IMG/VR virus record: IMGVR_UViG_3300033145_001829
Location: 1 to 20,106 of that record
Source: a virus
Reading direction: 5' to 3' (one strand)
Length of the DNA: 20,106 bases
The notes under the pieces are model-generated. The model worked only from the letters and a program-made list of their open reading frames with translations. It was not told where the DNA came from and did not search any database. Below are positions 1 through 18,379 of the stretch, in pieces; position 1 is the first letter of the stretch; each line of letters starts with the position of its first letter. The position numbers and the translations under genes are program-made.

Positions 1-954
1 GAAGAATCTAGTGACCTAACTAAGGCATGGGAGAACTTAGTTAAAGAATCGTTTAGATTAACACAACAAATTCAATCACCGTCAGGAATAGATCCGGTTG
101 ATGACTGGACATTTGGAGGATTGCGATCTAAGCAGATTGGGATTTTCATGGGGCCAACTGGTGAAGGAAAATCAGTTGTCTTGCTAAACCTTGCTTATCA
201 TATCTCGAATTTGGAAGAATTTGATGTATGGTTTGTCACTAATGAACTTTCTCTAGATGAACAAGCTGAGAGGATGCTAAGTCGAGTAATTGGAATTCCA
301 ATGCAGCATATCCAGCATAATCTAGATCAAGTAGACATGGGATTAAAAGTAAACTGGGATAAGTACAAAAATTCCAGATTACGAGTTACTTCGGTTAACT
401 CAGACATCTCAACTGCGGAATTAGAGAATATGATGGCTCGTTGGGCTACTATCTCTGGTTGGAAGCCTCAAGTGATTATTCTGGACTTTATGGAAAGGAT
501 GAAGCCCAATGATGATGGGTATCAGAGAAGTGCAGAGTGGCAGTGGTTAGGAGCTATCGCTAAAGACTTGGTAAGGTTTGCACGCCGCCATAATCAGATT
601 ATTTGGACAGCATGTCAAACAAATAGATCAGGGTTTAATAAAGAAGAGAGAATGAGCATGTCAATGGGTCAATCTTCTACTAGGCACTTTCAAGAGGCTG
701 CTGCTGTAATAGGCATTAGAAAAACTTGGGGGACTAATAAAAAAGAAGCTATTGAGCTTGAATCGTTGAAGATGAGACATGGTAAGACTAGTCTTGACTC
801 TATTTGCTTAGAATGCAATTTAGAAACAATGTATATCACTAATACTGTCACAGAGAAAATGGAGAGGGTAGAGGAGGACGATGATGATACTAGTGGTGGG
901 ACTGTTAAGTCAAGGGCTAAACCTGCTAGAGGAAAGCAGAAAAAGAAAAGATAA
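1..954 (+). CDS. Replicative DNA helicase, DnaB/gp41-like (C-terminal part, 5' end outside window)
   Basis: The reading frame is open from the left edge, so the N-terminal part is missing; 317 residues are visible. An in-frame TTG at 121 is not the start, because coding sequence continues upstream of it. The visible part is a RecA-type motor domain. Walker A (GPTGEGKS) is at visible residues 51-58. A Walker B strand (VIILDF, Asp162) follows. Farther on are a 'TACQTNRSG' segment matching the DnaB Q-T/L-N-R motif and an 'LKMRHGKT' segment in the place of the DnaB basic finger. In this family the hexamer unwinds DNA at the fork and partners with a primase, and a primase gene lies just downstream. 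The C-terminus is an acidic run followed by a Lys/Arg-rich tail, probably disordered. A RadA-like or other RecA-fold ATPase is possible but fits the Q-T-N-R motif less well. Confidence 0.85.
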   Translation, partial: EESSDLTKAWENLVKESFRLTQQIQSPSGIDPVDDWTFGGLRSKQIGIFMGPTGEGKSVVLLNLAYHISNLEEFDVWFVTNELSLDEQAERMLSRVIGIPMQHIQHNLDQVDMGLKVNWDKYKNSRLRVTSVNSDISTAELENMMARWATISGWKPQVIILDFMERMKPNDDGYQRSAEWQWLGAIAKDLVRFARRHNQIIWTACQTNRSGFNKEERMSMSMGQSSTRHFQEAAAVIGIRKTWGTNKKEAIELESLKMRHGKTSLDSICLECNLETMYITNTVTEKMERVEEDDDDTSGGTVKSRAKPARGKQKKKR

Positions 955-1030
955 TTAGAGGATTGAGTTGAGTCTAGAAGTCTTTTCCTCCTTTCAACTT
1001 CTAGATTCCTCTCCTCTAATTTAAGGAGAG
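954..1030 (+). promoter_or_regulatory. Long intergenic hairpin with an alternative fold that hides the downstream ribosome binding site
   Basis: Seen directly: 954-962 pairs perfectly with 1012-1020, 965-967 pairs with 1009-1011, and 970-981 pairs with 997-1008 (one G-T pair). This makes about 24 base pairs interrupted only by two 2-nt bulges, with a 15-nt loop at 982-996. No T-run follows, so it is not a textbook intrinsic terminator. The Shine-Dalgarno AAGGAG (1023-1028) of the next gene lies just after the stem. CTCTCCT at 1009-1015 is perfectly complementary to AGGAGAG at 1024-1030, so a second hairpin that masks the site competes with the first. The loop also contains CTCCTT (988-993), complementary to the same site. 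An RNase III processing site, attenuator or translational switch is inferred, not shown. Confidence 0.6.
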
Positions 1031-1034
1031 TAAA

Positions 1035-1241
1035 ATGAAAAAAAGATATTGGGTAAGTCAATATATGTTAGAAGAAGAGGGCAGAAACTATATTAAAGAT
1101 ATGAATTTAGATCACCGACAGGTCAAAGCAAATAAATATGTTGATATTATAAAACTTGCAATAGAACATAATTACAAGTATATTTATTGTGAACGAAAAA
1201 TGATTTTGGAGAATCCATGGTACGAAAGAATGCAATCATAG
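1035..1241 (+). CDS. Small hypothetical protein, 68 aa
   Basis: I do not recognise this protein. It begins with ATG six bases after a strong AAGGAG site (1023-1028) and ends at TAG, the only amber stop I noted in the window. It is rich in Lys, Tyr and Glu, has no signal peptide or membrane segment, and looks like a small soluble helical protein. Its last 25 bases overlap the start of the primase gene, whose GGAG site lies inside it, so the two are probably translationally coupled. Because it sits directly after the helicase-primase hairpin, its translation is the one most likely affected by that RNA structure. Confidence 0.6.
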   Translation: MKKRYWVSQYMLEEEGRNYIKDMNLDHRQVKANKYVDIIKLAIEHNYKYIYCERKMILENPWYERMQS

Positions 1242-2185
1242 AATGGTTTCATAAAGCTGGTTGGGGTGTAAACGCAATTGAGCATAGTGAGATTCAAACT
1301 AATTGCCCGAAATGTGGATATGGGAACTTCTATTTCAACATACGGAAATTAGTAGGTATCTGCCATAAAGCTAGATGCGACTATCACATTCATCCACCGA
1401 TATTGGAAGATTTGGAAAAATTAGCCGGATTCGGGCCGGATGAACATGGAGGATTTCGAGTTCGTGTGGACGACCCCATTCCAGTACGAAATTCGGTGGA
1501 AGTGACCTTACCTGGAGATCCGGTCATTCAGGTGATAGGCGGGCAACAGATGACGAAATATCCTAAGGTGGTGGACTATTTAGTAAATAGAAGGCTCACT
1601 TCTTATGATGTGCTACGATTCAAGCTAACGTGCGATGAGACTCGGGTGTATGTGCCAGTGTTTAAAGGAGAGACATTAATCAATTATGTGGGCCGGGATC
1701 TAACAGGAAAGGAAAGGAAGAAATACTTATACTCAAAGGGAGCAAAGACTAGTGAATGGTTGTTTGGCTGGGATGAATGTCAGGGCTGGGAGCGGCTCAC
1801 TCTAGTGGAAAATACGTTCGTTAGCATATCATTTCGAAATGTGCTACAATGCACTACGAACTTTGGATCTAGCTTAAGTGATGCTCAGATTACTTTGATT
1901 GCTAAGTCTAAGATTAAAACAGTAGCTATTTTGTGGGATGAAGGGACACATCGTTCAGCAAACAAAGCAGTTAGAAAACTAGCTAATCATGGAGTCAATG
2001 CTTGCTATGCTATCATGAAAGGACAACCTGATGAGCATGACCCTGGAGTGATCTATCAAATTGCTAGTGACTGCCATGAGGTAGCTAGTAAAGGTGTGAG
2101 ATATCTTGATCCCTTTGGTATTGGATCAGAGAAGAGACAGCAGGATGTTGAAAATAAGAAACAACAGAAGAGGAGAAGCAGATGA
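1217..2185 (+). CDS. DNA primase-like protein with zinc finger and divergent TOPRIM domain
   Basis: The 322-residue product has the order expected of a phage primase. An N-terminal zinc finger has C30-x2-C33, then C49 and C54. A middle 'YLVNRRLT...VPVF' region resembles the DnaG/T7 gp4 RNA-polymerase fold. A TOPRIM-like segment has Glu198 in 'LVENTF' and Asp241 in 'ILWDEG', and ends with the 'DEHDPG' stretch that usually closes TOPRIM. In this family the enzyme makes RNA primers for lagging-strand synthesis beside the DnaB-type helicase, which is encoded just upstream. The start ATG at 1217 follows GGAG with a 5-base gap. Two oddities: the usual EG..DAL motif reads ENTFVSI, and the second Asp of the DxD motif is replaced by Gly243. 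The protein may therefore be a divergent or weakened primase. The C-terminus is Lys/Arg/Gln-rich. Confidence 0.75.
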   Translation: MVRKNAIIEWFHKAGWGVNAIEHSEIQTNCPKCGYGNFYFNIRKLVGICHKARCDYHIHPPILEDLEKLAGFGPDEHGGFRVRVDDPIPVRNSVEVTLPGDPVIQVIGGQQMTKYPKVVDYLVNRRLTSYDVLRFKLTCDETRVYVPVFKGETLINYVGRDLTGKERKKYLYSKGAKTSEWLFGWDECQGWERLTLVENTFVSISFRNVLQCTTNFGSSLSDAQITLIAKSKIKTVAILWDEGTHRSANKAVRKLANHGVNACYAIMKGQPDEHDPGVIYQIASDCHEVASKGVRYLDPFGIGSEKRQQDVENKKQQKRRSR

Positions 2186-2331
2186 CAATAGAAGAGTTAA
2201 TTAATGCTATACTGAAAACTGATATTTTATTTGTTGTAAAATGTTTCGTAATAGCCGCTGTAGGATGGGCAGTAGTAATTGTTGGTGGTGCTTTCGCGTG
2301 GGGAAGGTTTCTTTTTTGGAAAAGGAGATAA
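2182..2331 (+). CDS. Small membrane protein, 49 aa
   Basis: This short gene starts with an ATGA overlap on the primase stop, so it is probably translated by reinitiation; AGGAG at 2171-2175 is also close. The peptide has a charged N-terminus, one hydrophobic segment at about residues 15-40 with a Gly/Ala/Val core, and a basic end (WKRR). That pattern suggests a single-pass inner-membrane peptide with the C-terminus in the cytoplasm. No family is recognised. Holin-like peptides and membrane anchors for phage replication both have this shape, but nothing here decides between them. Confidence rests on start coupling, the hydrophobic pattern and tight packing. Confidence 0.55.
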   Translation: MTIEELINAILKTDILFVVKCFVIAAVGWAVVIVGGAFAWGRFLFWKRR

Positions 2332-2334
2332 GTA

Positions 2335-2502
2335 ATGATTACAATTGAAATAGAAGTACCGGCTGCTAAATATTCTGTTTATACAATTGCAAAGGTTGTA
2401 GAAAAAGTATTGGCTGCGATGAATCCAGAAGAGGATTGGAGTGTATGGGTTAATCAAAACGTTGACAGAATACTAGAAGTTAATATCATGTCAGTTAATT
2501 AA
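2335..2502 (+). CDS. Small hypothetical protein, 55 aa
   Basis: ATG at 2335 follows AAAAGGAG (2319-2326) with a good gap, and the frame runs to TAA at 2500-2502. The product begins with an alternating hydrophobic/acidic strand (MITIEIEVP) and continues with a helix-like segment; no membrane segment or metal motif is visible. I do not recognise it. The gene fills the space between the membrane peptide and the next small gene with only short gaps on both sides, which supports it being real. Confidence 0.55.
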   Translation: MITIEIEVPAAKYSVYTIAKVVEKVLAAMNPEEDWSVWVNQNVDRILEVNIMSVN

Positions 2503-2512
2503 GGAGGAAGTA

Positions 2513-2758
2513 ATGGCAAAACAAATTGCATTAACACTTCCCGATCTACTAGCAATACAAGCTAAACAATATTGGTTAGATTTTGCAGCAGATCATTTTT
2601 ATAATGAAAGATTTTGGCCTGGAAAATCTTTTGCACGAGCTTGGTTAGAGGGAGATACTACTGTAGATTACTTATCTTTACCTAGAGATGAACAAGCCTG
2701 TCAAGCTGAACAATGCTTGGTTGAAACTTGGATAGAGTTAGGAGAAATTGATGGGTAA
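2513..2758 (+). CDS. Small acidic hypothetical protein, 81 aa
   Basis: ATG at 2513 follows a full AAGGAGG site (2501-2507). The 81-residue product is acidic, rich in Trp, Ala, Leu and Gln, predicted helical, and lacks Cys-pair metal sites and membrane segments. No family is recognised. Its last eight bases overlap the start of the DNA polymerase gene, whose GGAG site (2741-2744) lies inside it, so the two are likely translated together. A role linked to the polymerase is only a guess from that position. Confidence 0.6.
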   Translation: MAKQIALTLPDLLAIQAKQYWLDFAADHFYNERFWPGKSFARAWLEGDTTVDYLSLPRDEQACQAEQCLVETWIELGEIDG

Positions 2759-5384
2759 CTGTAGGAAAGATCCCTTCTGTCACTTGAGTACAGAGTCAGC
2801 ATTAATAGAGCTAAGAGGTGATTCATTTGAAAACATTCTTCGTTTACACAATGAAAATAAGTTACCTGTTTCTTTGTCTCTACCCCTGAAAGGACAGTTC
2901 GATACCATGATAGTAGGAGAGTCACCTTCTTTTGATGACATGAAAGGAAACATGCCGTTTCAAGATGAGTCAAGTGACTTACTAATAAGCTTTATAGAAC
3001 GAGCAGGACTTAATCCAAAGAGAACTTACGCAACTTATATTGTTAAATGTAAGCCACCATTTAGAAAGCCCTCAGTTAAAGAGATCAATACATGTAAAGT
3101 GGAGCATCTATTTGAGGAGATAAAAGCAATAGAACCTAAGGTGATTATCTTACTAGGGAACATAGCTGCTAGAGCATTTAACTTACACAATAAAGGAGGA
3201 ATGACTACAATCCATGGAAAAGTTTACCAACTACCTATTCCTACTGAGAAGGAACCACTATACAATGTCATACCTACTTTCAATCCTTCGATGTTTATTT
3301 ATAGACCTAACCCACAACTCCAACAGTCTGTGGTTAATGACTATAGGAATGCTCAAATGATTTTAGAGAACAAACCAATTGGTTCTCCTCAAGAGATTAA
3401 GTATAATCTTATTGATACTTATGAGAAAGTTAATTGGCTTGTTGATCAGCTCAATAGTGTGCCTAAGTTTGCATGTGATACTGAATCTGTTAGTCTTCCT
3501 TGGTCTACTAGTCAAATCTTATGCATGAGTTTCTGTTGGGGGTATCCTGATAAGACTGCGGTTCTTCCTTTCATGCACCACGATAAAGAAAGCGAGAACG
3601 CTGAACTCTTTTACCCACCTGAATCTAAGGTGGATATCGAGAGACAGATCTATACAAAGTGGTGCAAAACAGGACTGGCTTTAGTTCTTAATAAACTAGC
3701 AGTACCTTTTAGAGACTCTGGGATTAGTAAGATTTTTCATAACTATAAGTATGATGCTAATGTTATCAGACAATGGTTAGGAATTGGGATACAGGGATTC
3801 ATTTATGACACCATGGTTCTTCATCATTTACTACAGGAAGAAGGGAGTCATAAGCTAGAGGATTTAGCTGATGAGGAGTTTGAATACGGTGATTATAGTG
3901 AACCAATTAGGAGAATAGTAGGACATGGAAAGAAACTACTAAGAGACTATGGACATATTCCTGATGAAATCCTGTGGCCTTATGCTTCCTTAGACGCTGA
4001 GTCTACTTGGAGATTAGAGAATGAAAAATATACTCATAGACTTAGAGCTAAGCCTAGTCTATGGAAACTATATTGTGAAGAATCAGAGCCTCTCTTAAAA
4101 GCATTAGTGAAAGCAGAGTGGTGGGGGCATAAGATTGATACAAATGTAGTTGATACTTTAGAGCAGGAGTATACACAACGACAAGATGTTCTGTTGACAG
4201 AGATGAGAGGTTTAACTAATCCAACTTTCAATCCTCTTTCTCATCCTCAAGTTAAGCAAGCGTTTTTTGACATGGGACTAGCACATTTGATTCTGGATGA
4301 TCGTGCGACATCAGGAATCAAAGCAGACAAGAGTGTCTTAGCAGACATACAAGATGATGTACCGTTAGCTAGTAAGCTCTTAGAGTATAGGACTAATCGT
4401 AAGCTGTTAAGTACTTACTTACAAGATGCTAGAGATCACATCGAAGCTGATGGTAGAATCAGACACTCCTGGTATCCACTTACTGTTACAGGGAGACTAT
4501 CATGTAGGTTCTTTCATCAGATTCCTAAGACAGATCCGTATCGTATTCAAAAAGGTTTACTTGTGATGAGAGACATGTTCATTGTTGAGCCTGGATACAC
4601 TATGGTTTACGGAGACTATAGTCAAGTAGAGTTAAGAATCTTGGCTATTAAGTCACGCGATCAAGAGATGCTTCGTATTATGGATGACCATGATCAAGAC
4701 TTACATGCTGCTACTACCTATGAGTTTATTCGTAAGGTATGGACTGGATACACAGAAGAGATGGCAAGAAAAGACAAGTTCAATAGAGCAGAAGTAGGGA
4801 AGAGGATTAACTTTGGTCTTGCTTATGGTTCTCAAGGACATGCTCTAGTTAAGACAGGAAAATGGCAAGACTGGGATGGAGTTATCCGTTCGTTCACTTG
4901 GGACATGTTGAATGAAGGAATGATAGCATGGAAGCGGAGATTCCCTGGTGTAGGACAGTATTTAGAAGATGTACCAGAAGCAGCACGTAGATGTGGTGGC
5001 ATTGTATATAATTGTTTTGGAAGAGAAAGGAGACTAGGAGGTAGATTAAACTTAGCGAGTAAAGCTAAGAGAGGGGACGCTGAGCGAGAGGCAGTTAACT
5101 TCCCTATTCAATCAGCGGCTGGAGGTTTAACTAATCGAACTATAAGTATGATGGATAGAGTTATAGACAGAGCTATTAGTAAAGGAGAGATAGAAGAAGG
5201 CCATGTGAAATTAATTAATACAGTACATGACTCTATTGCATATGAAGTTAAAGATGAGCTAGTAGAGTGGTTTGTAGTAGTGTTAAAACAAATAGGTGAA
5301 AGACAAATTCCAGAGTTAGATTATCAAACGTTTGAAATGGACATTGGAGTTGGTCATACCTGGACAACAGCAGAAGGAGAATAA
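2751..5384 (+). CDS. polA: DNA polymerase, family A, with N-terminal uracil-DNA-glycosylase-like domain
   Basis: The 877-residue protein is a three-part fusion. Residues about 50-200 resemble a family 4/5 uracil-DNA glycosylase: GESPS at 56-60, then GNMPF, KCKPP at 99-103, an 'ILLGNIAA' strand, and FNPS at 177-180 where the family usually has HPS. A DEDD 3'-5' proofreading domain follows, with Asp243 and Glu245 (DTE), Asp335 (HNYKYD) and Tyr411...Asp415. The polymerase domain has motif A DYSQVELR (Asp622), motif B K684..NFGLAYG and motif C HDS (Asp827). No 5'-3' exonuclease domain is present. UDG-Pol I fusions are known from SPO1-like phages. I chose ATG 2751 because GGAG at 2741-2744 is six bases away; a TTG at 2748 would add one residue. 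This is the replicative polymerase acting with the helicase, primase and SSB. The role of the glycosylase domain is uncertain. Confidence 0.95.
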   Translation: MGNCRKDPFCHLSTESALIELRGDSFENILRLHNENKLPVSLSLPLKGQFDTMIVGESPSFDDMKGNMPFQDESSDLLISFIERAGLNPKRTYATYIVKCKPPFRKPSVKEINTCKVEHLFEEIKAIEPKVIILLGNIAARAFNLHNKGGMTTIHGKVYQLPIPTEKEPLYNVIPTFNPSMFIYRPNPQLQQSVVNDYRNAQMILENKPIGSPQEIKYNLIDTYEKVNWLVDQLNSVPKFACDTESVSLPWSTSQILCMSFCWGYPDKTAVLPFMHHDKESENAELFYPPESKVDIERQIYTKWCKTGLALVLNKLAVPFRDSGISKIFHNYKYDANVIRQWLGIGIQGFIYDTMVLHHLLQEEGSHKLEDLADEEFEYGDYSEPIRRIVGHGKKLLRDYGHIPDEILWPYASLDAESTWRLENEKYTHRLRAKPSLWKLYCEESEPLLKALVKAEWWGHKIDTNVVDTLEQEYTQRQDVLLTEMRGLTNPTFNPLSHPQVKQAFFDMGLAHLILDDRATSGIKADKSVLADIQDDVPLASKLLEYRTNRKLLSTYLQDARDHIEADGRIRHSWYPLTVTGRLSCRFFHQIPKTDPYRIQKGLLVMRDMFIVEPGYTMVYGDYSQVELRILAIKSRDQEMLRIMDDHDQDLHAATTYEFIRKVWTGYTEEMARKDKFNRAEVGKRINFGLAYGSQGHALVKTGKWQDWDGVIRSFTWDMLNEGMIAWKRRFPGVGQYLEDVPEAARRCGGIVYNCFGRERRLGGRLNLASKAKRGDAEREAVNFPIQSAAGGLTNRTISMMDRVIDRAISKGEIEEGHVKLINTVHDSIAYEVKDELVEWFVVVLKQIGERQIPELDYQTFEMDIGVGHTWTTAEGE

Positions 5385-5385
5385 T

Positions 5386-5706
5386 ATGAAACTTAGAATC
5401 GTAATTAAATTTCCTACATCTGACCAAGTTATAAGAGAGTTCGATAGTCTTGTAGAAGGCAATCATTATATGGGTGTACTTCAACAAGGCTTCACTCATA
5501 AACATAAGTCGTATCAACTAGGAGAACATGGGATTAACTTTGATCAATATGATGGAGTAGAAACAGTAATAGTTCATTGTATTACTCAAGCAGAAGCAGA
5601 TAAGAAACTAACTGACTTATTAGATCAAACTTCTGCTGGTTTTAGGGACAAGCTAACTCCTCCGTTTAAGACTGACTCTGGAGATGGTGGAGGTTTCTTA
5701 AATTAA
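5386..5706 (+). CDS. Hypothetical protein, 106 aa
   Basis: ATG at 5386 is two bases after the polymerase stop and follows AAGGAG (5374-5379), so the gene belongs to the same transcript. A TTG farther upstream would run into the polymerase frame and is not needed. The product starts with a beta-strand (MKLRIVIKFP), contains His- and Asp-rich middle parts, and ends in a Gly-rich tail (DGGGFLN). No catalytic motif or membrane segment is visible and I do not recognise a family. The next gene begins on the base after its stop, so the two products are likely made in step and may work together. Confidence 0.6.
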   Translation: MKLRIVIKFPTSDQVIREFDSLVEGNHYMGVLQQGFTHKHKSYQLGEHGINFDQYDGVETVIVHCITQAEADKKLTDLLDQTSAGFRDKLTPPFKTDSGDGGGFLN

Positions 5707-6177
5707 ATGAGCGAGAATCTAATCATTGAAAAGCTAGTTCCTCAAGAGGATAAATCAGTTCAATGGGTACCATATCGGTACACATTTGAACCAGAGAAAG
5801 ATTTTTTAATTGATCCTGAAAATCTTGATGGAGAGATTTGCAAAGTCGGACAGCTTATGCTACAATACGGAGAAGCTCGTAGTCTACTTGACGCACAGGC
5901 TGAGAGATATAAGAGAGACATTGAACGTATCCATGCTCATTGTTATTTAGAGTATCGAAAAGTATTATTACAGGAAGGAGAACGGGCTACAAACGAAGTT
6001 ATAAAAGCTCATGTAGTGACAAATAATCACTATCAAAAAGCAGTTCAGAAGTACATTGAAGTAAGTAAACAATCTAACTTAGCTGAAGGCTGGTGGAGAA
6101 TGATTCAGAAGAAGGCTGACTTACTTCAATCAATTGTCTATAAGCAAGGCGCTGAGATTAAAAGAGGTGCTTTTTAA
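5707..6177 (+). CDS. Candidate UvsY-like recombination mediator, 156 aa
   Basis: The start ATG directly abuts the TAA of the previous gene; the nearest GGAGG (about 5688-5692) is rather far upstream, so coupled reinitiation is likely. The protein is largely helical and charged, with an N-terminal 'IDPENLDGEI' lead-in, a middle region rich in Arg, Lys and Glu, and a C-terminal 'WWRMIQKKADLLQSIVY' helix. That shape, and the C-terminal 'Lq.i.y..g' pattern, resemble UvsY, which helps load the RecA-like UvsX protein onto SSB-coated ssDNA. The neighbouring gp32-like SSB and RecA genes fit this role. The likeness is one of size, helix layout and context rather than a diagnostic motif, so another small replication accessory protein is possible. 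Confidence 0.45.
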   Translation: MSENLIIEKLVPQEDKSVQWVPYRYTFEPEKDFLIDPENLDGEICKVGQLMLQYGEARSLLDAQAERYKRDIERIHAHCYLEYRKVLLQEGERATNEVIKAHVVTNNHYQKAVQKYIEVSKQSNLAEGWWRMIQKKADLLQSIVYKQGAEIKRGAF

Positions 6178-6180
6178 TTT

Positions 6181-6211
6181 CGGACAAAAATTCTCAAAAA
6201 AAGGAATAATT
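6181..6211 (+). repeat. 31-nt perfect direct repeat, copy 1 (upstream of ssb)
   Basis: Bases 6181-6211 are identical to 17788-17818. The element begins CGGACAAAAATTCTC and ends GGAATAATT, with an A-run between. It sits three bases after the TAA of the UvsY-like gene and 31 bases before the SSB start codon. It holds a CGGACA and an AATAAT separated by 18 bases, which loosely resemble -35 and -10 boxes, and also an AAGGA. The gap it occupies is one of the few real intergenic spaces in the window. It could be a phage promoter or an RNA/translation element. Confidence 0.75.
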
Positions 6212-6242
6212 CAATATACCCACAAATCTAAGGAGATTATCA

Positions 6243-7187
6243 ATGAGTGACTTTTTTCAACCTAACAGAGAACTACTAGACCAAGAACGAGCACGGGATG
6301 CAAAGGAGAACGTAGAACTAGACGGGCCTAAGCCTTTCCGGCTAGAAAAGGGAGTAACAGAGTTCCGTGTGCTACCTCCTTTTGATGATACGGGAAAGTG
6401 GTACCGAGAAATCAAAGAGTATTGGGTACCTATTGATGGGTACAATCAGCGGTTTACCTCTCCTTCTGCTTTCGGACTCCCTGATCCTATTGCTGACAAG
6501 CGACAAGAACTAATGGATGCAGGTGGAGAAGCTAACATGAAGATTGCCAAAGGTCTTGGAGAACGAAGAGCTTTTCTTTATAACATCATCGTTAAGAGTG
6601 CTCCTCCTGGAGTAGAGTTTACTCCTGGACAGGTGTACGTATTAAAGACAGGGGTAAAGGTTAAGCGTTCTCTATTAGGCAGTGACTCTGATCTACAGGG
6701 TGGCTTTGCTGACATTACTAACCCGGATGCTGGTGTATCCTTTAGAGTTACACGTAGTGGCGCAGGACTAAACACTGACTACGATGTGAAGACATGTGCT
6801 GGTCGGACTTCGTTAGCAGATGACTTAGCTCTAGTGGGAATGGCAATGATTGGTGCTAAGCATCTATACCAGTTAGGAGAGCTATACCCTCCGAAGAGCG
6901 CCGATGAACTTAAGCTAGATATGCTTGGGTTGAAGCCAGCAACAAGCATTCCACAAGCCGCCCCGCAAGTAGCTCAACCAGTAGCTCAACCAACATTTCA
7001 GGGAACCGCACCTGTTCAGACTCCTGGCCCCGCTAGTAGTCCTGTACCTAATAATCCCATTGCTGCGCCTCAGCAGGTGGTTCAAGACCCGACTCAGGTA
7101 GTAGAACCTCAACCTGTACCACCCGCACCGCTGCCTGAAATCAAAGCACCTCCCGCAATTATTCCTACAGAGGAAGAGAAATTTTAA
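6243..7187 (+). CDS. Single-stranded DNA-binding protein, gp32-like
   Basis: The 314-residue product has the plan of the T4 gp32 and cyanophage-type SSBs. A short acidic N-terminus is followed by an OB-fold-like core at about residues 30-225, which opens with 'FRLEKGVTEFRVLPP' (a lysine-rich strand followed by the RVLP signature). A long Pro/Gln/Val/Ala-rich linker follows at about 230-305, and the protein ends in an acidic tip (TEEEKF) of the kind that recruits partner proteins. The linker includes a short tandem VAQP repeat. The zinc-binding Cys/His set of T4 gp32 is not visible. The protein would coat ssDNA at the fork and in recombination. The start ATG follows AAGGAG at 6231. The gene is preceded by the 31-nt repeat and overlaps the next gene by TAATG. 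Confidence 0.8.
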   Translation: MSDFFQPNRELLDQERARDAKENVELDGPKPFRLEKGVTEFRVLPPFDDTGKWYREIKEYWVPIDGYNQRFTSPSAFGLPDPIADKRQELMDAGGEANMKIAKGLGERRAFLYNIIVKSAPPGVEFTPGQVYVLKTGVKVKRSLLGSDSDLQGGFADITNPDAGVSFRVTRSGAGLNTDYDVKTCAGRTSLADDLALVGMAMIGAKHLYQLGELYPPKSADELKLDMLGLKPATSIPQAAPQVAQPVAQPTFQGTAPVQTPGPASSPVPNNPIAAPQQVVQDPTQVVEPQPVPPAPLPEIKAPPAIIPTEEEKF

Positions 7188-7519
7188 TGGTAAAATTTAC
7201 AGAACGTGTCTTTCCTATGGACGAGGTAGCAGAATTATATGACTCTGGTCTGTCTTTACTGGCAGTAGCAGAAAAGTATAATACTACAGCAGGTACTATT
7301 AGAAATAAACTGATAAAGCATGGCGTCGAGATTCGGGCGCGAGGCGCTCATATGATTTCAGATCTAAAGAAGAGAGAATTTGAGGAAGACTTAGCTGCCT
7401 TAGAAGAAGACGTTGAAGAAGTAGAAGAAGAAATTGAAGAGGTACTAGAAGAAGTAGAACAAGTTGTAAATATTTTAACAGAAGTTGAATCTGCTGCAAA
7501 AAGGAAAATCGGATGGTAA
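7187..7519 (+). CDS. Helix-turn-helix protein with acidic coiled-coil tail, 110 aa
   Basis: The N-terminal half (about residues 10-53) reads as a resolvase/homeodomain-like helix-turn-helix: 'MDEVAELYDSGLS' then 'AEKYNTTAGTIRNKLIKHG', followed by a basic 'EIRARGA'. The second half (about 60-100) is a Glu/Val/Leu coiled coil with very high acidic content, and its codons are near-repeats of GAAGAA. The start is a TAATG overlap with the SSB stop, and its own stop lies inside the start of recA, so the three genes are tightly coupled. The protein probably binds DNA and forms dimers or oligomers. A transcriptional role, or a helper of SSB/RecA exchange, are both possible; no family member is recognised by name. 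Confidence 0.65.
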   Translation: MVKFTERVFPMDEVAELYDSGLSLLAVAEKYNTTAGTIRNKLIKHGVEIRARGAHMISDLKKREFEEDLAALEEDVEEVEEEIEEVLEEVEQVVNILTEVESAAKRKIGW

Positions 7520-8580
7520 AAGAAGACGAAAAACTACAGAGACTACTTGAACTTACACAAAAGAAATTAGATAAGGATGATATTTGTGCGGACATTTATA
7601 AGCCAACCGATATTGGAATTGCATCTTATATTCCACACACCATCTCTTCTGGCCTAGCTGAACTAGATCTTCAGCTAGGAGGAAGAGGAGGGCTTCCTGC
7701 TGGTCGCCTCATCGAGTACTATGGATTTGAAATGTCAGGTAAGACTACTGGCGCACTCCATGCCCTCGCTGAGGTACAGAAGCTTGGAGGGATTGGTCTT
7801 TTCATTGATGCAGAGCATACGTTCAGTCCTACTAGAGCAAAGCAGTGTGGCGTAGACTTAGATAGACTACAAGTAATCTCTGCTCATAGTGTTGAAAGTA
7901 TCTTCGGTGGTGCTGAAGCGTTCATTGAAAATATCGAAGCAGTTAAGTTAAATGTTCCTTGTCTTATTGTAGTAGACTCAGTAACAGGAACACATGTAGA
8001 ATCAGAAACAGACGCAGACTTCTCTAAAGATCAACGTGTGGGACATGAGGCTAAACAAATTAGACGTGGGGTTAAGAGATTGCATGGGATGTTAGCGCGT
8101 ACTAAAATTTGCTGCATTCTAATCAATCATGCTATCGCTTCTAATCTAACTATGGCATTTGGCAAGAAGTCTCAGGCTGCTGGTGGACATGGAGCTAAGA
8201 TCATGGCTACTATACGTATTGAGTTTAAAAATATGGGACGAATTGGTAAAGCTGATTCTCGTGAAGGACAAAAAATTAAGATGATTATTGAGAAGCTGAA
8301 GAACGCTCAGCTTTCTCAGACTGAAGTAGCAGATGTCAACTTAAAAGTTAATGGTTTTGATCAAGCATTAAGTTTAATCAATGCTGGTGTTAGAACCAAG
8401 TGGGTAACAGAAAAGAATAAAGTGTATACGTTACAAGTTGGAGAAGATGAACGACAATTTAAGTTAGATGAATGGCCTGGAATCATTGATGTATTGGGCG
8501 GATATGATTCTGTCTATCAAATGTGGCTGACTAAGGCCCGAGAGGATGGATACATCCAGTTATGGAGTGAAGCATGGTAA
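7513..8580 (+). CDS. recA: RecA/UvsX-type recombinase
   Basis: The 355-residue protein has the full RecA core: Walker A GFEMSGKT at 71-78, a 'GLFIDAEHTF' strand with the catalytic Glu region, Walker B 'CLIVVDSV', and a loop L2 region running from 'INHAIASN' to 'GGHGAKIMATIRIEF', parallel to the bacterial INQ...GGNALKFYAS segment. The C-terminal half matches the length of phage UvsX proteins rather than the longer bacterial tail. It would form ATP-dependent filaments on ssDNA and drive strand exchange, repair and recombination-dependent replication together with the SSB, the UvsY-like protein and SbcCD. ATG 7513 has AAGGA eight bases upstream and overlaps the stop of the helix-turn-helix gene. 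Confidence 0.93.
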   Translation: MVKEDEKLQRLLELTQKKLDKDDICADIYKPTDIGIASYIPHTISSGLAELDLQLGGRGGLPAGRLIEYYGFEMSGKTTGALHALAEVQKLGGIGLFIDAEHTFSPTRAKQCGVDLDRLQVISAHSVESIFGGAEAFIENIEAVKLNVPCLIVVDSVTGTHVESETDADFSKDQRVGHEAKQIRRGVKRLHGMLARTKICCILINHAIASNLTMAFGKKSQAAGGHGAKIMATIRIEFKNMGRIGKADSREGQKIKMIIEKLKNAQLSQTEVADVNLKVNGFDQALSLINAGVRTKWVTEKNKVYTLQVGEDERQFKLDEWPGIIDVLGGYDSVYQMWLTKAREDGYIQLWSEAW

Positions 8581-12024: not shown

Positions 12025-12711
12025 ATGAGATGGAAACCATCGGAGACTAAAATGAAAAGCATGGATACACTATCATTACTTTATGATTTTGGAATTGACG
12101 CTGAGAACAGGAGAATCTATTTCGTAGATAATATCAATGAGAATAATTTAGAAGTAGTAATGAAAGCAATACATATTTTTAATACTGATGAACATAGAAG
12201 ATGTGAACCGATTGAAGTATTTATCTGTTCTAATGGGGGCCTTGTGGACGTAATGTTTGCACTCTATGATCTCTTCAGATCTAGTGCGAGTCCTATCCAC
12301 ACAATTATCACTGGCTCTTGTTGCTCTGCTGCTGGGTTGGTAGCTATGAGTGGGCATCTTAGGTTTGCTACAGAGAACAGCTTCTTTATGCACCATGCTA
12401 TCAAAGCTTTCTCAGAAGACCTAAATGATTCTGAGCTTAGTGCCCGTGCTGAAGTAATTAAAGAGATGGCAAGCAAGACCTATGATTTAATGGGTCTTCA
12501 TTCTAAGAAGGCTAAAAGCTGGTGGAAGAAGCAGACAGAACAACAAGGAGAGACATGGCTTACACCTGTACAAATGCTTGAATATGGTGTGATTGATGAG
12601 ATTATTAAGAACCCAATCCTTAAGAAGAAGAGAACTCCTAGCAAGAGGAAGGCAGTAAGGAAGAAAGTAGTAAAGAAGCAAGTAGTAAAGCAGAAGAAAA
12701 AAGATGACTAA
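12025..12711 (+). CDS. clpP: ClpP-like serine protease with basic C-terminal tail
   Basis: The 228-residue product has the ClpP fold pattern: a 'FICSNGG' strand like ClpP's INSPGG, the serine motif in 'GSCCSAAG' (Ser101), 'SFFMHHA' with His123 in the catalytic position, and the 'YGVIDEII' ending of the ClpP core. At the usual Asp position, my alignment by the 'LTPVQMLEYG' block gives Glu176, so the triad may be Ser-His-Glu. After residue 195 an extra tail of about 33 residues is nearly all Lys, Arg and Val, which suggests nucleic-acid or membrane contact. Phage ClpP-like proteases often mature capsids, but this gene sits in a recombination block. ATG 12025 has GGGAG upstream; ATG 12052, preceded by CGGAG, is an alternative start. 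Confidence 0.8.
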   Translation: MRWKPSETKMKSMDTLSLLYDFGIDAENRRIYFVDNINENNLEVVMKAIHIFNTDEHRRCEPIEVFICSNGGLVDVMFALYDLFRSSASPIHTIITGSCCSAAGLVAMSGHLRFATENSFFMHHAIKAFSEDLNDSELSARAEVIKEMASKTYDLMGLHSKKAKSWWKKQTEQQGETWLTPVQMLEYGVIDEIIKNPILKKKRTPSKRKAVRKKVVKKQVVKQKKKDD

Positions 12712-13507: not shown

Positions 13508-14219
13508 AATCGTTGTATTTGATTTAGAGACTAGTGACTTAAGTGCCGATGTAGGGAGCGTTCTCTGTGCCGGATGGAAGATCCTTGGCAAGAAGAAGAC
13601 TAATGTTATTAAAATTGATAATTATGAGCTATTTGATGACGATCCTACTAATGACTATGCTGTAGTCGAAGAGATGGGTGACGTACTTAGGAATGCTGAC
13701 GCTTGGATAGGGTGGTACTCAATGAAGTTTGATGCTCCTTATCTTAACTCTCGACTTCTCTTCCATGATCTGCCTCCTATTCCGCCAATGACCACAGCAA
13801 CCCATCTAGACGGTTGGAGAGTAGCAAGATATAAGATGAAGCTACGCAACAATAGACTTGCCACCGTCGCTGCGTTCTTTGGTGTAGAAGAAAAGACACA
13901 TCTAGACTTACGCATCTGGAAGAGAGCCAGTGCTGGTCATAGACCTTCTCTCAAGTATGTCTATGAGCATTGTCGCCAAGACCTCATTGTGACTGAACAA
14001 GTCTATGAGAAGATTAAAGTACTTGACCCAATGCACTTCAACATCAACATCATTTCTGGTAGAGAGGATGCCTGTCCTAACTGTGGTGTACAGGATAACT
14101 TTAGGAAGGGTGGAAGGAATCTTGCTCAAACTAGCTGGAGTCAACGGTATCAATGTACGTCATGCGGTAAGTGGTGCTCTGGCACTCGGCAACCTATTAA
14201 GAAGATGATGAAAAGATGA
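13491..14219 (+). CDS. DEDD 3'-5' exonuclease (RNase H-like) with C-terminal zinc ribbon
   Basis: The 242-residue protein opens with ExoI 'VVFDLETS' (Asp11, Glu13), continues with ExoII 'WYSMKFDAPYL' and ExoIII 'CRQDLIVTEQVYEKI', and so carries the acidic set of the DnaQ/RNase H-like exonucleases, in the style of YprB-type domains. It ends with a zinc ribbon: CPNC near residue 200, then 'RYQCTSCGKW', a pattern like the zinc ribbons of IS1-type transposases. It would trim or proofread DNA or RNA ends, with the ribbon adding nucleic-acid binding. ATG 13491 is chosen because AAGGGAG lies nine bases upstream; ATG 13464 would add nine residues but has no site. Confidence 0.8.
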   Translation: MAKKPEIVVFDLETSDLSADVGSVLCAGWKILGKKKTNVIKIDNYELFDDDPTNDYAVVEEMGDVLRNADAWIGWYSMKFDAPYLNSRLLFHDLPPIPPMTTATHLDGWRVARYKMKLRNNRLATVAAFFGVEEKTHLDLRIWKRASAGHRPSLKYVYEHCRQDLIVTEQVYEKIKVLDPMHFNINIISGREDACPNCGVQDNFRKGGRNLAQTSWSQRYQCTSCGKWCSGTRQPIKKMMKR

Positions 14220-14677
14220 AACCTTCTGTCTATCTCTGCGGACCTATGAGCGGATTAACTTGGCAAGAAGCACTTGCATGGAGGAAAAAATGCGAAGCTG
14301 AACTGTACTCACGATGGAGGTTAATCAATCCAGTACGTTCACAAATAGCCACATCTTCTATTCATGATATTATTCCAGTTCAACTACAGTCTGACAATGA
14401 TTATAAAGATTTAAAAGATACAGCTACTGGTGTTACAGCTCAAGATGAGTTCTTTATTGATCAATCTGACTGGCTCTTATGTAACTTTCTCAACGCTGAT
14501 AAAGTAAGTATTGGTTCTGTCTGGGAGATGGGGTATGCTTGGGGAACGCATAAGAAAATCCTTACTGTACTAGAACCAGGGAGTATACATGACCATCCTT
14601 TCATTCGAAGACGGTCACATGTATTTACTCCTAGTTTAAATGAGGCAATTGAGTTCTTTAAAGCTATTGCATTGTGA
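14216..14677 (+). CDS. Nucleoside 2-deoxyribosyltransferase-like protein (DUF4406-type)
   Basis: The 153-residue protein starts 'VYLCGPMSG', the P-loop-like opening of the nucleoside 2-deoxyribosyltransferase superfamily, and has a later 'SDWLLCN' strand and 'GSVWEMGYAWG' helix carrying Glu104, which fits the catalytic-Glu position of the family. Enzymes in this group cleave or exchange the N-glycosidic bond of deoxynucleosides or nucleotides. Its place before the ribonucleotide reductase suggests nucleotide salvage or editing of the nucleotide pool, but substrate is unknown. It starts with an ATGA overlap on the exonuclease stop. Confidence 0.7.
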   Translation: MKPSVYLCGPMSGLTWQEALAWRKKCEAELYSRWRLINPVRSQIATSSIHDIIPVQLQSDNDYKDLKDTATGVTAQDEFFIDQSDWLLCNFLNADKVSIGSVWEMGYAWGTHKKILTVLEPGSIHDHPFIRRRSHVFTPSLNEAIEFFKAIAL

Positions 14678-14980: not shown

Positions 14981-17569
14981 GTGACTAAAGAACCCGCAAT
15001 GTCTGTGTATGCTGAGACTATTTTTAAAGGACACTATGCCTTTAATGATAAAGAAGATTGGTTAGGTTGTGCTGCCCGTGTCAGTAAGTTTAACTCTGAT
15101 GGAGACGCAGCCTTAGAGAAGAAATTTTTTAACGCAATCTCTACAAGAAAGTTTCTACCGGGTGGAAGATATTTGTATAGTGCCGGTAGAAAACTTCCTC
15201 AGATTACTAACTGCTTTCTACTACGAGCAAAGGACTCCCGTGAAGGATGGGGAGAGATCCTTGACAGACACGCTGTAGCTTTATCATTAGGTGGTGGTGT
15301 CGGTACTTACTATGGAGATGTCCGTGCTAAAGGAGCCACTATTAATAGATATGGTGGCGTAGCTGGTGGTCCTGTAAGTCTTATACAAATGATTAATGAA
15401 GTAGCTCGTTACATACAGGCGGGGGGAGCTAGAAGAGCAGCTTTATGGGCTGGTCTACCGTGGTGGCACCCTGATATTGAGGAATTTTTCACTATTAAAA
15501 ATTGGCCTACTCATATCAGAGCATTGAAAGAAGATAACTTTGAGTTTCCAGCACCATTAGATATGACCAACGTTTCTGTATGTCTAGATGATGAGTTCTT
15601 TAAAGAGATAAAGAAGAATGAAGACGTACAAAAACTTTACTATAACATTGTCAGACAAGCATTAAAGACTGGCGAGCCTGGATTTAGTGTAAACATTAAA
15701 GATCAAAGTAAGCAGGTACTTAGAAATCCTTGCCAGCCTGGGTGGGCTACAGTCTTGACTCCAGACGGTATTAAAATGTTTGATGATATTGCTGTTGGCT
15801 CTGTTATTTGGAGTGGAGATACCTGGACTATAGTTACTAACAAACAGCATACAGGAACTAAGGAAGTATTGAAATACGAAACCACAGCCGGTTCTTTTTT
15901 TGGTACAGAAGAACATAGAGTAATGTCTAACGGAATACGTACACCAGTAAAAGAAGCACAAGAAATAGATATTTGTACAGGAAGAAAGCTTGAACTAAAC
16001 GATAAGAATCTCCGCGCTCAAGACGTTATGGATGGCTTAGTAATTGGTGACGGTGGAGTACATAAGGCTTCTAATAATTTAGTTGCTCTTTATGTAGGAG
16101 ATAATGATAAAAAAGACTATCAACAATCTAGTATTGCTCCCCTGATGGTAAAATATAGACCTGGACTTGATAAAAAAGCATGGGGTGTGACTACCACAAT
16201 TTTACCAAATGAACTTCCTAAAACATATGATAGAGTTGTCCCTAATAGATTTTTCTTTGGTTCCAGCAGCGTTAAATTAGGATTTTTGAGAGGATTATTT
16301 TCTGCAAATGGTAGTGTTGTTGGTAAAGGAAGTGGCTGTAGAGTCACTCTTAAACAAACTAGTAGGGTCCTCATTAATCAAGTACAAGTAATGCTGTCCT
16401 CTGTAGGAATTAAATCATATGTAACTACAAATAAACCACGCATTGTTGAACACCATAACGGGACATACACCAGCAGACAAAGTTACGATTTAAACATTTC
16501 TACTGACCGTTATCAGTTCCATAAGACTATTGGTTTTATTCATGGTTATAAAAATAAAATTCTATCTAATAATCTAATGACACCGTCGGCGTTTACTAAT
16601 CCTAGGACTACTTATGATATCATAGCAGTTACTTCGTATGGCGATCATGAAGTTTATGACATTACTGTTGATGACGCTATGCATACTTATTGGACAAATG
16701 GTATGTTAGTTTCAAATTGTACAGAGATCACCTCTGATACCCCATATGATTGCTGTAACCTGGGCTCTATTAACCTTAGTAAAATTAAAGATCTTAATGA
16801 GCTAGAAGAAATCACTCGTATTGGTGTAAAGTTTCTTTACTTAGGTACTTCTAAAGGAGTATTGCCTCATGAAAATTTCTATGAGGTACGAAAAAAGAAT
16901 CATCGAATTGGATTAGGATTGATGGGACTACATGAGTTCTGTATCCGTAATGACTTAAGATATGAGCCCTCTGGAACCCTAGGCAAGTGGTTACATACCT
17001 GGGAGACAGTCTCTGATGATGAAGCAAAGAATGTAGCTAAAGAAAATGGTGGTATTGTTCCCATTGCTGTAAGGTCTATTGCTCCTACAGGTACCATTAG
17101 TATCATTGGAGAGACAACAAGTGGAATTGAACCTATCTTTTGTCGCAGCTATAAGAGACGATGGATTGAAAATGGTAGGTGGAAGTACACTTATGTTATT
17201 GATCCGACTGCAGCTCGCTTAATTCAAGAGGGGGTTAGTCATGATGATATTGAGGACGCTTACACGTTAGCTAGAGATGTAGAACGGAGGCTGAGTATGC
17301 AAGCGTTCATTCAAGACTATGTTGATCAAGGCATCTCCTCAACTATCAATCTGCCTGAGTGGGGTGAGCCTGGGAACTCTAATGCTAAGAAATTCTCAGA
17401 AGTTTTACTGAAGTACTTGCCAAAGCTCAGAGGAATCACTATGTTCCCTGAAGGTAGTAGACCCGGCCAACCACTCACGCCAGTACGCTATGAGACTGCT
17501 ATTAAACATAAGGATGTAATGTATGAAGAAGACTCTGATAGGTGTGTAGGAGGTGTTTGTGGTATCTAA
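14981..17569 (+). CDS. nrdJ: Class II (adenosylcobalamin-dependent) ribonucleotide reductase, intein-containing precursor
   Basis: The 862-residue frame encodes a reductase split by an intein at residues 251-579; the spliced protein would be 533 residues. Reductase signatures are Cys78 in 'QITNCF', 'NP' joined after splicing to 'CTEI' (catalytic thiyl-radical Cys580 and Glu582), 'CCNLGSINL' (Cys591/592, the partner redox cysteine), 'APTGTIS' with 'GETTSGIEPIF', and a C-terminal C855...C860 pair near the end for re-reduction. It lacks an ATP cone, and no NrdB gene is seen in the window, which fits a cobalamin-dependent enzyme. It makes deoxynucleotides for replication. The length is short for the class, as in other phage forms. 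GTG 14981 follows AGGAG at 14971-14975. Confidence 0.92.
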   Translation: MTKEPAMSVYAETIFKGHYAFNDKEDWLGCAARVSKFNSDGDAALEKKFFNAISTRKFLPGGRYLYSAGRKLPQITNCFLLRAKDSREGWGEILDRHAVALSLGGGVGTYYGDVRAKGATINRYGGVAGGPVSLIQMINEVARYIQAGGARRAALWAGLPWWHPDIEEFFTIKNWPTHIRALKEDNFEFPAPLDMTNVSVCLDDEFFKEIKKNEDVQKLYYNIVRQALKTGEPGFSVNIKDQSKQVLRNPCQPGWATVLTPDGIKMFDDIAVGSVIWSGDTWTIVTNKQHTGTKEVLKYETTAGSFFGTEEHRVMSNGIRTPVKEAQEIDICTGRKLELNDKNLRAQDVMDGLVIGDGGVHKASNNLVALYVGDNDKKDYQQSSIAPLMVKYRPGLDKKAWGVTTTILPNELPKTYDRVVPNRFFFGSSSVKLGFLRGLFSANGSVVGKGSGCRVTLKQTSRVLINQVQVMLSSVGIKSYVTTNKPRIVEHHNGTYTSRQSYDLNISTDRYQFHKTIGFIHGYKNKILSNNLMTPSAFTNPRTTYDIIAVTSYGDHEVYDITVDDAMHTYWTNGMLVSNCTEITSDTPYDCCNLGSINLSKIKDLNELEEITRIGVKFLYLGTSKGVLPHENFYEVRKKNHRIGLGLMGLHEFCIRNDLRYEPSGTLGKWLHTWETVSDDEAKNVAKENGGIVPIAVRSIAPTGTISIIGETTSGIEPIFCRSYKRRWIENGRWKYTYVIDPTAARLIQEGVSHDDIEDAYTLARDVERRLSMQAFIQDYVDQGISSTINLPEWGEPGNSNAKKFSEVLLKYLPKLRGITMFPEGSRPGQPLTPVRYETAIKHKDVMYEEDSDRCVGGVCGI
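15731..16717 (+). other. Intein with LAGLIDADG homing-endonuclease domain (in the reductase)
   Basis: The 329-residue insert begins with Cys251 and ends with Ser578-Asn579, followed by Cys580. Block A is 'CQPGWATVLTPDG', block B 'GTEEHRV' (His312), block F 'VYDITVDDAMHTYWTNG' (His568), and block G 'MLVSN' followed by Cys. Removing it joins NP to CTEI, recreating the exact reductase active-site motif. A LAGLIDADG domain sits in the middle: motif one 'GLVIGDGG' (Asp357) is intact, while motif two 'LRGLFSANGS' has Asn443 in place of the catalytic Asp. The penultimate residue is Ser rather than the usual His. Splicing should be possible; homing activity is doubtful. Confidence 0.93.
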
Positions 17570-17821: not shown

Positions 17822-18379
17822 ATGAAAACAAAGCTAATAGGACTATCGGGTTACAAGCAATCAGGAAAGAGTACAGTGGCTAAACATTTACGAGACACAT
17901 ATAATTTTCTTGAACTATCTTGGGCGTTTCCTCTTAAAGAGATCATTGGAAAACAAATATTTAAACTAAGTAATAATGACTTATATGGTGATTCGCCTAA
18001 GAGAGAGGAAGTGATTCCTTTGTGGGGAAAATCTCCACGAAAGATTCTTCAAGAAGTAGGTACTGATCTCTTTCGTAACAAGTTTGATAAAGATTTCTGG
18101 GTTAAGATTACAGAAGAGCATATGAAAAATCACATGAGTTGGGGAGACTCAATTGTTGTATCAGACTGCAGGTTTCCTAATGAAGCAGAGTCAATTAAAA
18201 AGCTAGGAGGTAAACTAATTAGAATAATCAAGGTAGGAGGAGATCCTTCTGATGATCTACATGAATCAGAACTAGCCCTTGATTCTTATGATGACTTTGA
18301 CTTTAAGATCGTAGCAATCATGGGAGATCTTCAAAGTATTTATAATCAATTAAAGGCTATTATTAGTCAGTTAACATAA
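17822..18379 (+). CDS. Deoxynucleoside monophosphate kinase (T4 gp1-like)
   Basis: The 185-residue protein has an N-terminal P-loop 'GYKQSGKST' (residues 10-18) and, later, 'VVSDCRFPNEAE' and a 'DLHESE' segment, the pattern seen in T4 gp1-type dNMP kinases. It would phosphorylate dNMPs to dNDPs at the expense of ATP, feeding the dNTP pool alongside the ribonucleotide reductase. T4 gp1 also accepts a modified nucleotide, 5-hydroxymethyl-dCMP, but nothing here shows that. The start is ATG 17822 with AAGGA inside the preceding repeat. Confidence 0.85.
   Translation: MKTKLIGLSGYKQSGKSTVAKHLRDTYNFLELSWAFPLKEIIGKQIFKLSNNDLYGDSPKREEVIPLWGKSPRKILQEVGTDLFRNKFDKDFWVKITEEHMKNHMSWGDSIVVSDCRFPNEAESIKKLGGKLIRIIKVGGDPSDDLHESELALDSYDDFDFKIVAIMGDLQSIYNQLKAIISQLT

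Follow-up and report, generated by a model that had tools for sequence, protein, structure and literature searches.

Inteins at the catalytic cysteine of ribonucleotide reductases

Inteins favor the catalytic sites of nucleotide and replication enzymes (reviewed in PMC5874633), and in marine viral ribonucleotide reductases (RNRs) they are sporadic, with 8 found among 18,717 RNRs (PMC12918982). The position directly before the RNR catalytic cysteine is an already known insertion site. The Nodularia phages vB_NpeS-2AV2 and kac65v162 (YP_009830474.1 and QBQ73617.1; loci L088 and L089) have an intein there (SNP↓C...HN↓CGEI, arrows marking the junctions), in a protein labeled 'intein-containing RnR' by its annotators. 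The intein studied here, from a 20,106-base stretch of viral DNA (the window), is homologous to the Nodularia phage intein over its whole length (29% identity, tblastn) and has the same SANG second motif. Nevertheless, the Nodularia phage RNR belongs to another lineage, its extein being 22% identical to that of the window, and its intein has 336 residues and a penultimate His where the window intein has 329 residues and a Ser. In the Nodularia phages a cobalamin adenosyltransferase gene adjoins the intein-bearing class II RNR (L088, 5605-6300); none was seen in the 20-kb fragment that forms the window.

A Moorella phage also has an intein at this RNR site, as does the class Ib NrdE of an actinobacterial Miltoncostaea plasmid (SNL↓C...GN↓CSEI). 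The Miltoncostaea gene (L090, 1116-4994) contains two inteins, the second being the one before the catalytic Cys and the other preceding the first redox-type Cys (SCFPAG...HN↓CFLI). Chromosomal NrdJ inteins of Omnitrophota share the insertion point in 17 genomes (among L313-L332; SNP/TNP↓C...[NQD]↓C[GS]E). They are longer than the window intein (355-411 aa), have the canonical Asp in the second motif and branch apart from it in the intein tree.

The archaeal class II RNR model NF006207/PRK08332 (Pyrococcus) aligns the end of the window intein and the C-extein in one run (model positions 1075-1240, continuing to 1326), and these profile coordinates suggest that the archaeal site is the same. 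PI-PfuI (1DQ3), an intein endonuclease from the P. furiosus RNR (RIR1), has Glu250 where the window intein has Asn193; PI-PfuII (Pfu RIR1-2) is presumably the intein at the NPC site. The NrdJ-1 split intein (8UBS) also comes from an RNR and shares the Hint fold with the window intein. Unlike the latter, it is split and lacks an endonuclease, and its insertion point presumably differs.

Insertion point and predicted spliced product

The features of the locus are as follows (positions in the window; residue numbers inside the intein count from C1).

14981..17569, + strand: nrdJ-type class II ribonucleotide reductase precursor, GTG start, 862 aa (533 aa once spliced)
14981..15730, + strand: N-extein, residues 1-250, C-terminal letters VLRNP
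15731..16717, + strand: intein, 329 aa, precursor residues 251-579
15731..15733, + strand: C1, first splicing nucleophile, invariant in 72 same-site inteins
15905..15916, + strand: intein block B, TEEH (T59, H62), T and H invariant (72/72)
16004..16579, + strand: LAGLIDADG endonuclease domain, approximate limits at residues 92 and 283; Pfam LAGLIDADG_3, E 2e-15
16016..16054, + strand: first LAGLIDADG helix, GLVIGDGG, predicted helix 96-107; Asp107 codon 16049-16051
16265..16312, + strand: second LAGLIDADG helix, FLRGLFSANGSV, predicted helix 179-193; Asn193 codon 16307-16309
16715..16717, + strand: Asn329, C-terminal cyclizing Asn, preceded by Ser rather than His
16718..16720, + strand: Cys+1, the catalytic thiyl-radical cysteine of the reductase by alignment
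16718..17566, + strand: C-extein, CTEITS at its start and CVGGVCGI at its end, the latter likely the C-terminal redox Cys pair

The intein flanks read VLRNP↓CQPGWATVLTPDG...HTYWTNGMLVSN↓CTEITSDTPYDCCNLGSINLS; the intein itself runs from CQPGWATVLTPDG to TYWTNGMLVSN, between VLRNP and CTEITSDTPYDCCNLGSINLS. The initial annotation had placed an intein at residues 251-579, exactly before the catalytic Cys, and had stated that its deletion restores NP-CTEI. All three statements were borne out. The insert occupies exactly nucleotides 15731-16717 of the GTG-started frame, and its removal leaves a 533-aa product without a break at the junction. Alignment of this product with Thermotoga maritima NrdJ (1XJE) runs through the junction (npcteit/NPCGEIG) and places the thiyl-radical cysteine at Cys+1. 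Moreover, the product aligns column for column with three phage NrdJs that lack an insert (44-49% identity; RN[AP]CTE[IV]TS).

The comparison with reductases of related phages, proposed in the same annotation, was carried out on 84 NrdJ frames. All but one lack an insert at the site (RN[AP]C.E), and the catalytic Cys is kept in all 83; the remaining frame is that of the Moorella phage, with its own intein at the same site. Two of the empty sites are syntenic with the window: L008 and L009 (61% and 60% identity) have an uninterrupted nrdJ and share with it the gene order SbcD-SbcC-ClpP-nuclease-nrdJ-dNMP kinase-glycosyltransferase. At the level of sequence, the intein reading of the insert is thus confirmed as not due to chance.

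Splicing domain

The intein has the full set of class 1 splicing residues, namely C1, T59-E-E-H62, N329 and Cys+1. Both junctions could be read at the same site in 72 distinct cases, the window and 71 relatives. C1, T59xxH62, Asn329 and Cys+1 are invariant across these 72 inteins, the parsing of whose junctions demanded N at -2 and E at +3 and partly required C at +1. At position -1, 65 of the 72 have Pro and 5 have Ala; in the penultimate position of the intein, Ser (49 cases) is more frequent than His (17) and Ala (4). Pro at -1 with a penultimate Ser is non-standard, though common in this virus-associated family.

An AlphaFold2 model of the intein, built from an eight-sequence alignment, had a mean pLDDT of 79.6. 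Its splicing part matched the gp41-1 intein (VIA Z 19.4, rmsd 1.5, 120 aligned) and the NrdJ-1 intein (VIA Z 17.0), and the splicing domain is accordingly modeled as a horseshoe Hint fold. As judged from its residues, the element is a class 1, Cys1/Cys+1 intein that is predicted to self-splice.

Host reductase and gene neighborhood

The reductase matches PF02867 (E 6e-53) and has the radical Cys, the redox Cys and the barrel domain of a class II RNR, with the 1XJE alignment passing through NPC. The best curated model was NrdJ_Z (TIGR02504), which scored 239 bits with the intein removed against a cut-off of 400, indicating a phage class II enzyme of short, divergent type. A single nrdJ was found in the 20,106-base record, which is a fragment of a genome; within the same 20-kb fragment no R2 radical subunit (PF00268) was detected. 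A nucleoside 2-deoxyribosyltransferase-like frame lies near nrdJ at 14216-14677 and a dNMP kinase frame at 17822-18379. By its predicted products, nrdJ sits within an intact dNTP cassette in the order of the intein-free relatives.

Elsewhere in the window, 2748-5384 encodes a family A DNA polymerase in which an N-terminal uracil-DNA-glycosylase superfamily domain (PF03167, E 2e-22, residues 53-197) is followed by a 3'-5' exonuclease. A ClpP-like protease (12025-12711; PF00574; PHROG head maturation protease) is located between the SbcC and nuclease genes, not among head genes, and L008 and L009 are alike in this respect. A DNA-level search with window positions 1-8000 gave a single trivial 81-base match.

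Predicted homing target

Around the insertion point, the only DNA bases conserved across the family are those fixed by N-P/A-C-x-E; third-codon positions vary freely, so that homing would have to tolerate wobble or co-evolve with its target. The initial annotation held that the host protein could neither lose the site nor escape the intein by point change without losing activity. The first part stands, as the catalytic Cys is locked and is kept in the 83 empty relatives. Escape was overstated: intein-free alleles are the rule in the NrdJ clade, and silent third-base changes are open to the host gene. With the two syntenic alleles at 60-61% identity among those lacking the element, the sequences suggest that many members of this clade have lost the intein precisely or never acquired it.

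Endonuclease domain and the Asn193 substitution

The middle part of the intein model matches the folds of I-DmoI (E 7e-7) and I-Tsp061I, and the domain has the two helices of a LAGLIDADG (DOD) endonuclease. An acid is present at the end of the first motif (Asp107); the second motif ends in Asn193. Profile comparison aligned the GFIAGDG and GLFDAEG motifs of PI-PfuI to Asp107 and Asn193, respectively, which puts Asn193 at the position of PI-PfuI Glu250.

The first large viral scan gave Asn at position 193 in 74 of 74 distinct loci, with a possible bias from one search pattern that contained SAN. The scan was repeated with patterns outside the motif. Of 75 relatives that could be read with a C-terminal pattern, 73 have Asn and 2 have Asp, and all 47 found with a first-motif pattern have Asn. 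Asn193 is thus as conserved across the relatives as the intact Asp107. The two Asp carriers inside the viral Asn clade are L207 (SADG) and L217 (TADG); they are natural controls for an Asn193/Asp comparison. The cellular same-site inteins of Omnitrophota have Asp in the second motif (SADG, TADG, SSDG), and the Omnitrophota search results included two cases with Asn: L311, near-identical to a viral contig, and L312. Two changes suffice to place the Asn/Asp label on the intein tree.

For the endonuclease domain, dN/dS was 0.15-0.19 over three independent close pairs, equal to that of the splicing domain, a sign of purifying selection: the domain is maintained and not decaying. Asn193 had at first been read as a sign of endonuclease decay; this reading was dropped after the unbiased Asn counts and the dN/dS values. 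Since nearly all members have Asn in place of the second catalytic acid, the endonuclease is probably asymmetric. Within the literature searched, no paper was found on Asn in LAGLIDADG active sites. In I-SceI, Ala in place of an essential active-site acid (D145A) destroys cleavage, K223I beside the active center leaves an enzyme that cuts a single strand, and nicks promote recombination (PMC3928301). A strand-biased enzyme is therefore the natural hypothesis for the Asp107/Asn193 pair, and the conserved Asn in a domain under purifying selection suggests an endonuclease that works asymmetrically, perhaps by strand nicking. It is conceivable, if rather doubtful, that the whole family has an asymmetric endonuclease whose Asp/Asn pair is maintained by selection and that homes by a one-strand nick or other altered chemistry, with no double-strand break. 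Slow deamidation of the near-universal Asn-Gly pair to Asp, acting as a timer, is much less likely. The conserved Asn raises a precise question: can LAGLIDADG homing proceed with one intact catalytic acid? Should the endonuclease prove to nick, nature would have an equivalent of the engineered meganuclease nickases.

A virus-associated intein family

Scanning viral contigs with the intein sequence alone gave no match, and profiles were required. Intein profiles recovered L093-L099 first and then 80 viral loci out of 106 matching relatives; because the scans used endonuclease patterns, they would miss mini-inteins. These relatives and the window intein make up a large family associated with viruses, new in this analysis and under-described, of which the Asp/Asn active-site pair is the distinctive feature. 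Neither the family nor its conserved Asn figures in the initial annotation.

The window intein is 49-54% identical to those of L093 and L094, whereas the exteins are just 26-28% identical. Across the 72 loci, intein and extein tree distances were uncorrelated (Mantel r 0.004, p 0.41) and the two trees shared the nearest neighbor in 6 of 72 cases, in a comparison that used quick trees and was partly saturated by the divergence of the exteins. As the intein distances do not track those of the host reductases, the inteins appear to have moved between distantly related RNRs. The window intein groups with that of L149. Among reductases with an intein, that of L149 is likewise the closest to the window reductase, and in this pair intein and reductase may have been inherited together locally. 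In the wider family, the spread of inteins from virus to virus can be studied as a natural experiment.

Proposed explanation and alternatives

Taken as a whole, the locus is very probably a splicing, homing Cys1/Cys+1 intein at the radical Cys of nrdJ, with an endonuclease that is probably asymmetric. The precursor would splice itself before the reductase can work, by an N-S shift at C1, transesterification onto the catalytic Cys and cyclization of Asn329. The endonuclease domain would home into intein-free nrdJ genes of co-infecting viruses, and the target codons N-P/A-C-x-E would be fixed at the protein level, a change there killing the enzyme; in both ways the element would persist. Members of the family would move between very different RNRs, and with Asn in place of the second catalytic acid in nearly all of them the endonuclease would probably be strand-biased yet functional. 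Such a selfish element is tied to a host residue that cannot change, the splicing Cys being the Cys that makes deoxynucleotides.

The substitution of Asn for Asp/Glu in one active site could instead mean that the endonuclease is dead and the intein a vertically inherited, non-homing passenger. Dead endonucleases normally decay, and this domain has a dN/dS of a maintained one. Asn is as conserved as Asp107, and the inteins occur in RNRs that are unrelated to one another. This reading is unlikely, even with the engineered loss of one catalytic acid known to abolish LAGLIDADG cleavage (I-SceI D145A; PMC3928301). It is still less probable, indeed extremely so, that the insert fails to splice and that another RNR has taken over from a gene now reduced to a pseudogene. 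A further nrd gene could lie beyond the ends of the 20-kb fragment, but the frame is open over 862 codons, conservation covers all splice residues and the extein on either side, and the dNTP cassette is intact with the gene order of intein-free relatives.

The initial annotation had also supposed that dNTP supply could be tied to redox or metal conditions, and this idea gained no specific support; the reactive thiols here are the generic C1 and Cys+1. If the intein were a switch, sensitive to redox or metal conditions, that matched dNTP supply to the state of the cell, these two could form a disulfide or bind Zn. Disulfide formation and Zn binding by intein cysteines are known from other inteins, and DnaE redox-trap structures were among the PDB entries matched by the intein fold. 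Nevertheless, no second conserved Cys runs through the family (72 same-site inteins), and the window reductase lacks an N-extein Cys near the junction such as that of the DnaE redox trap, the residues there being R-N-P with no Cys within four positions. Few relatives have a Cys at -3 or -4, and a Cys that precedes the KESYDL motif in most relatives is absent from the window intein. Moreover, the sporadic presence of the intein and the mostly empty alleles of the clade are unlike a required regulator. With the generic C1/Cys+1 pair as the sole candidate switch, redox control has a low probability on these sequences, and the switch reading as a whole is very unlikely.

Other insertions in viral reductases

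Three family members lie before other RNR cysteines (L167, L169 and L310; WA↓C...HN↓CLILD and YT↓C...SN↓CVLSS), positions that suggest retargeting inside the same protein. A second intein or large insert occurs elsewhere in the RNR of L093, at GGVRR↓C...HN↓S, and in that of L149, where extein residues 153 and 154 of the window alignment flank it; some viral RNRs thus carry two. Annotation pipelines can misread or split viral RNR genes with such inserts.
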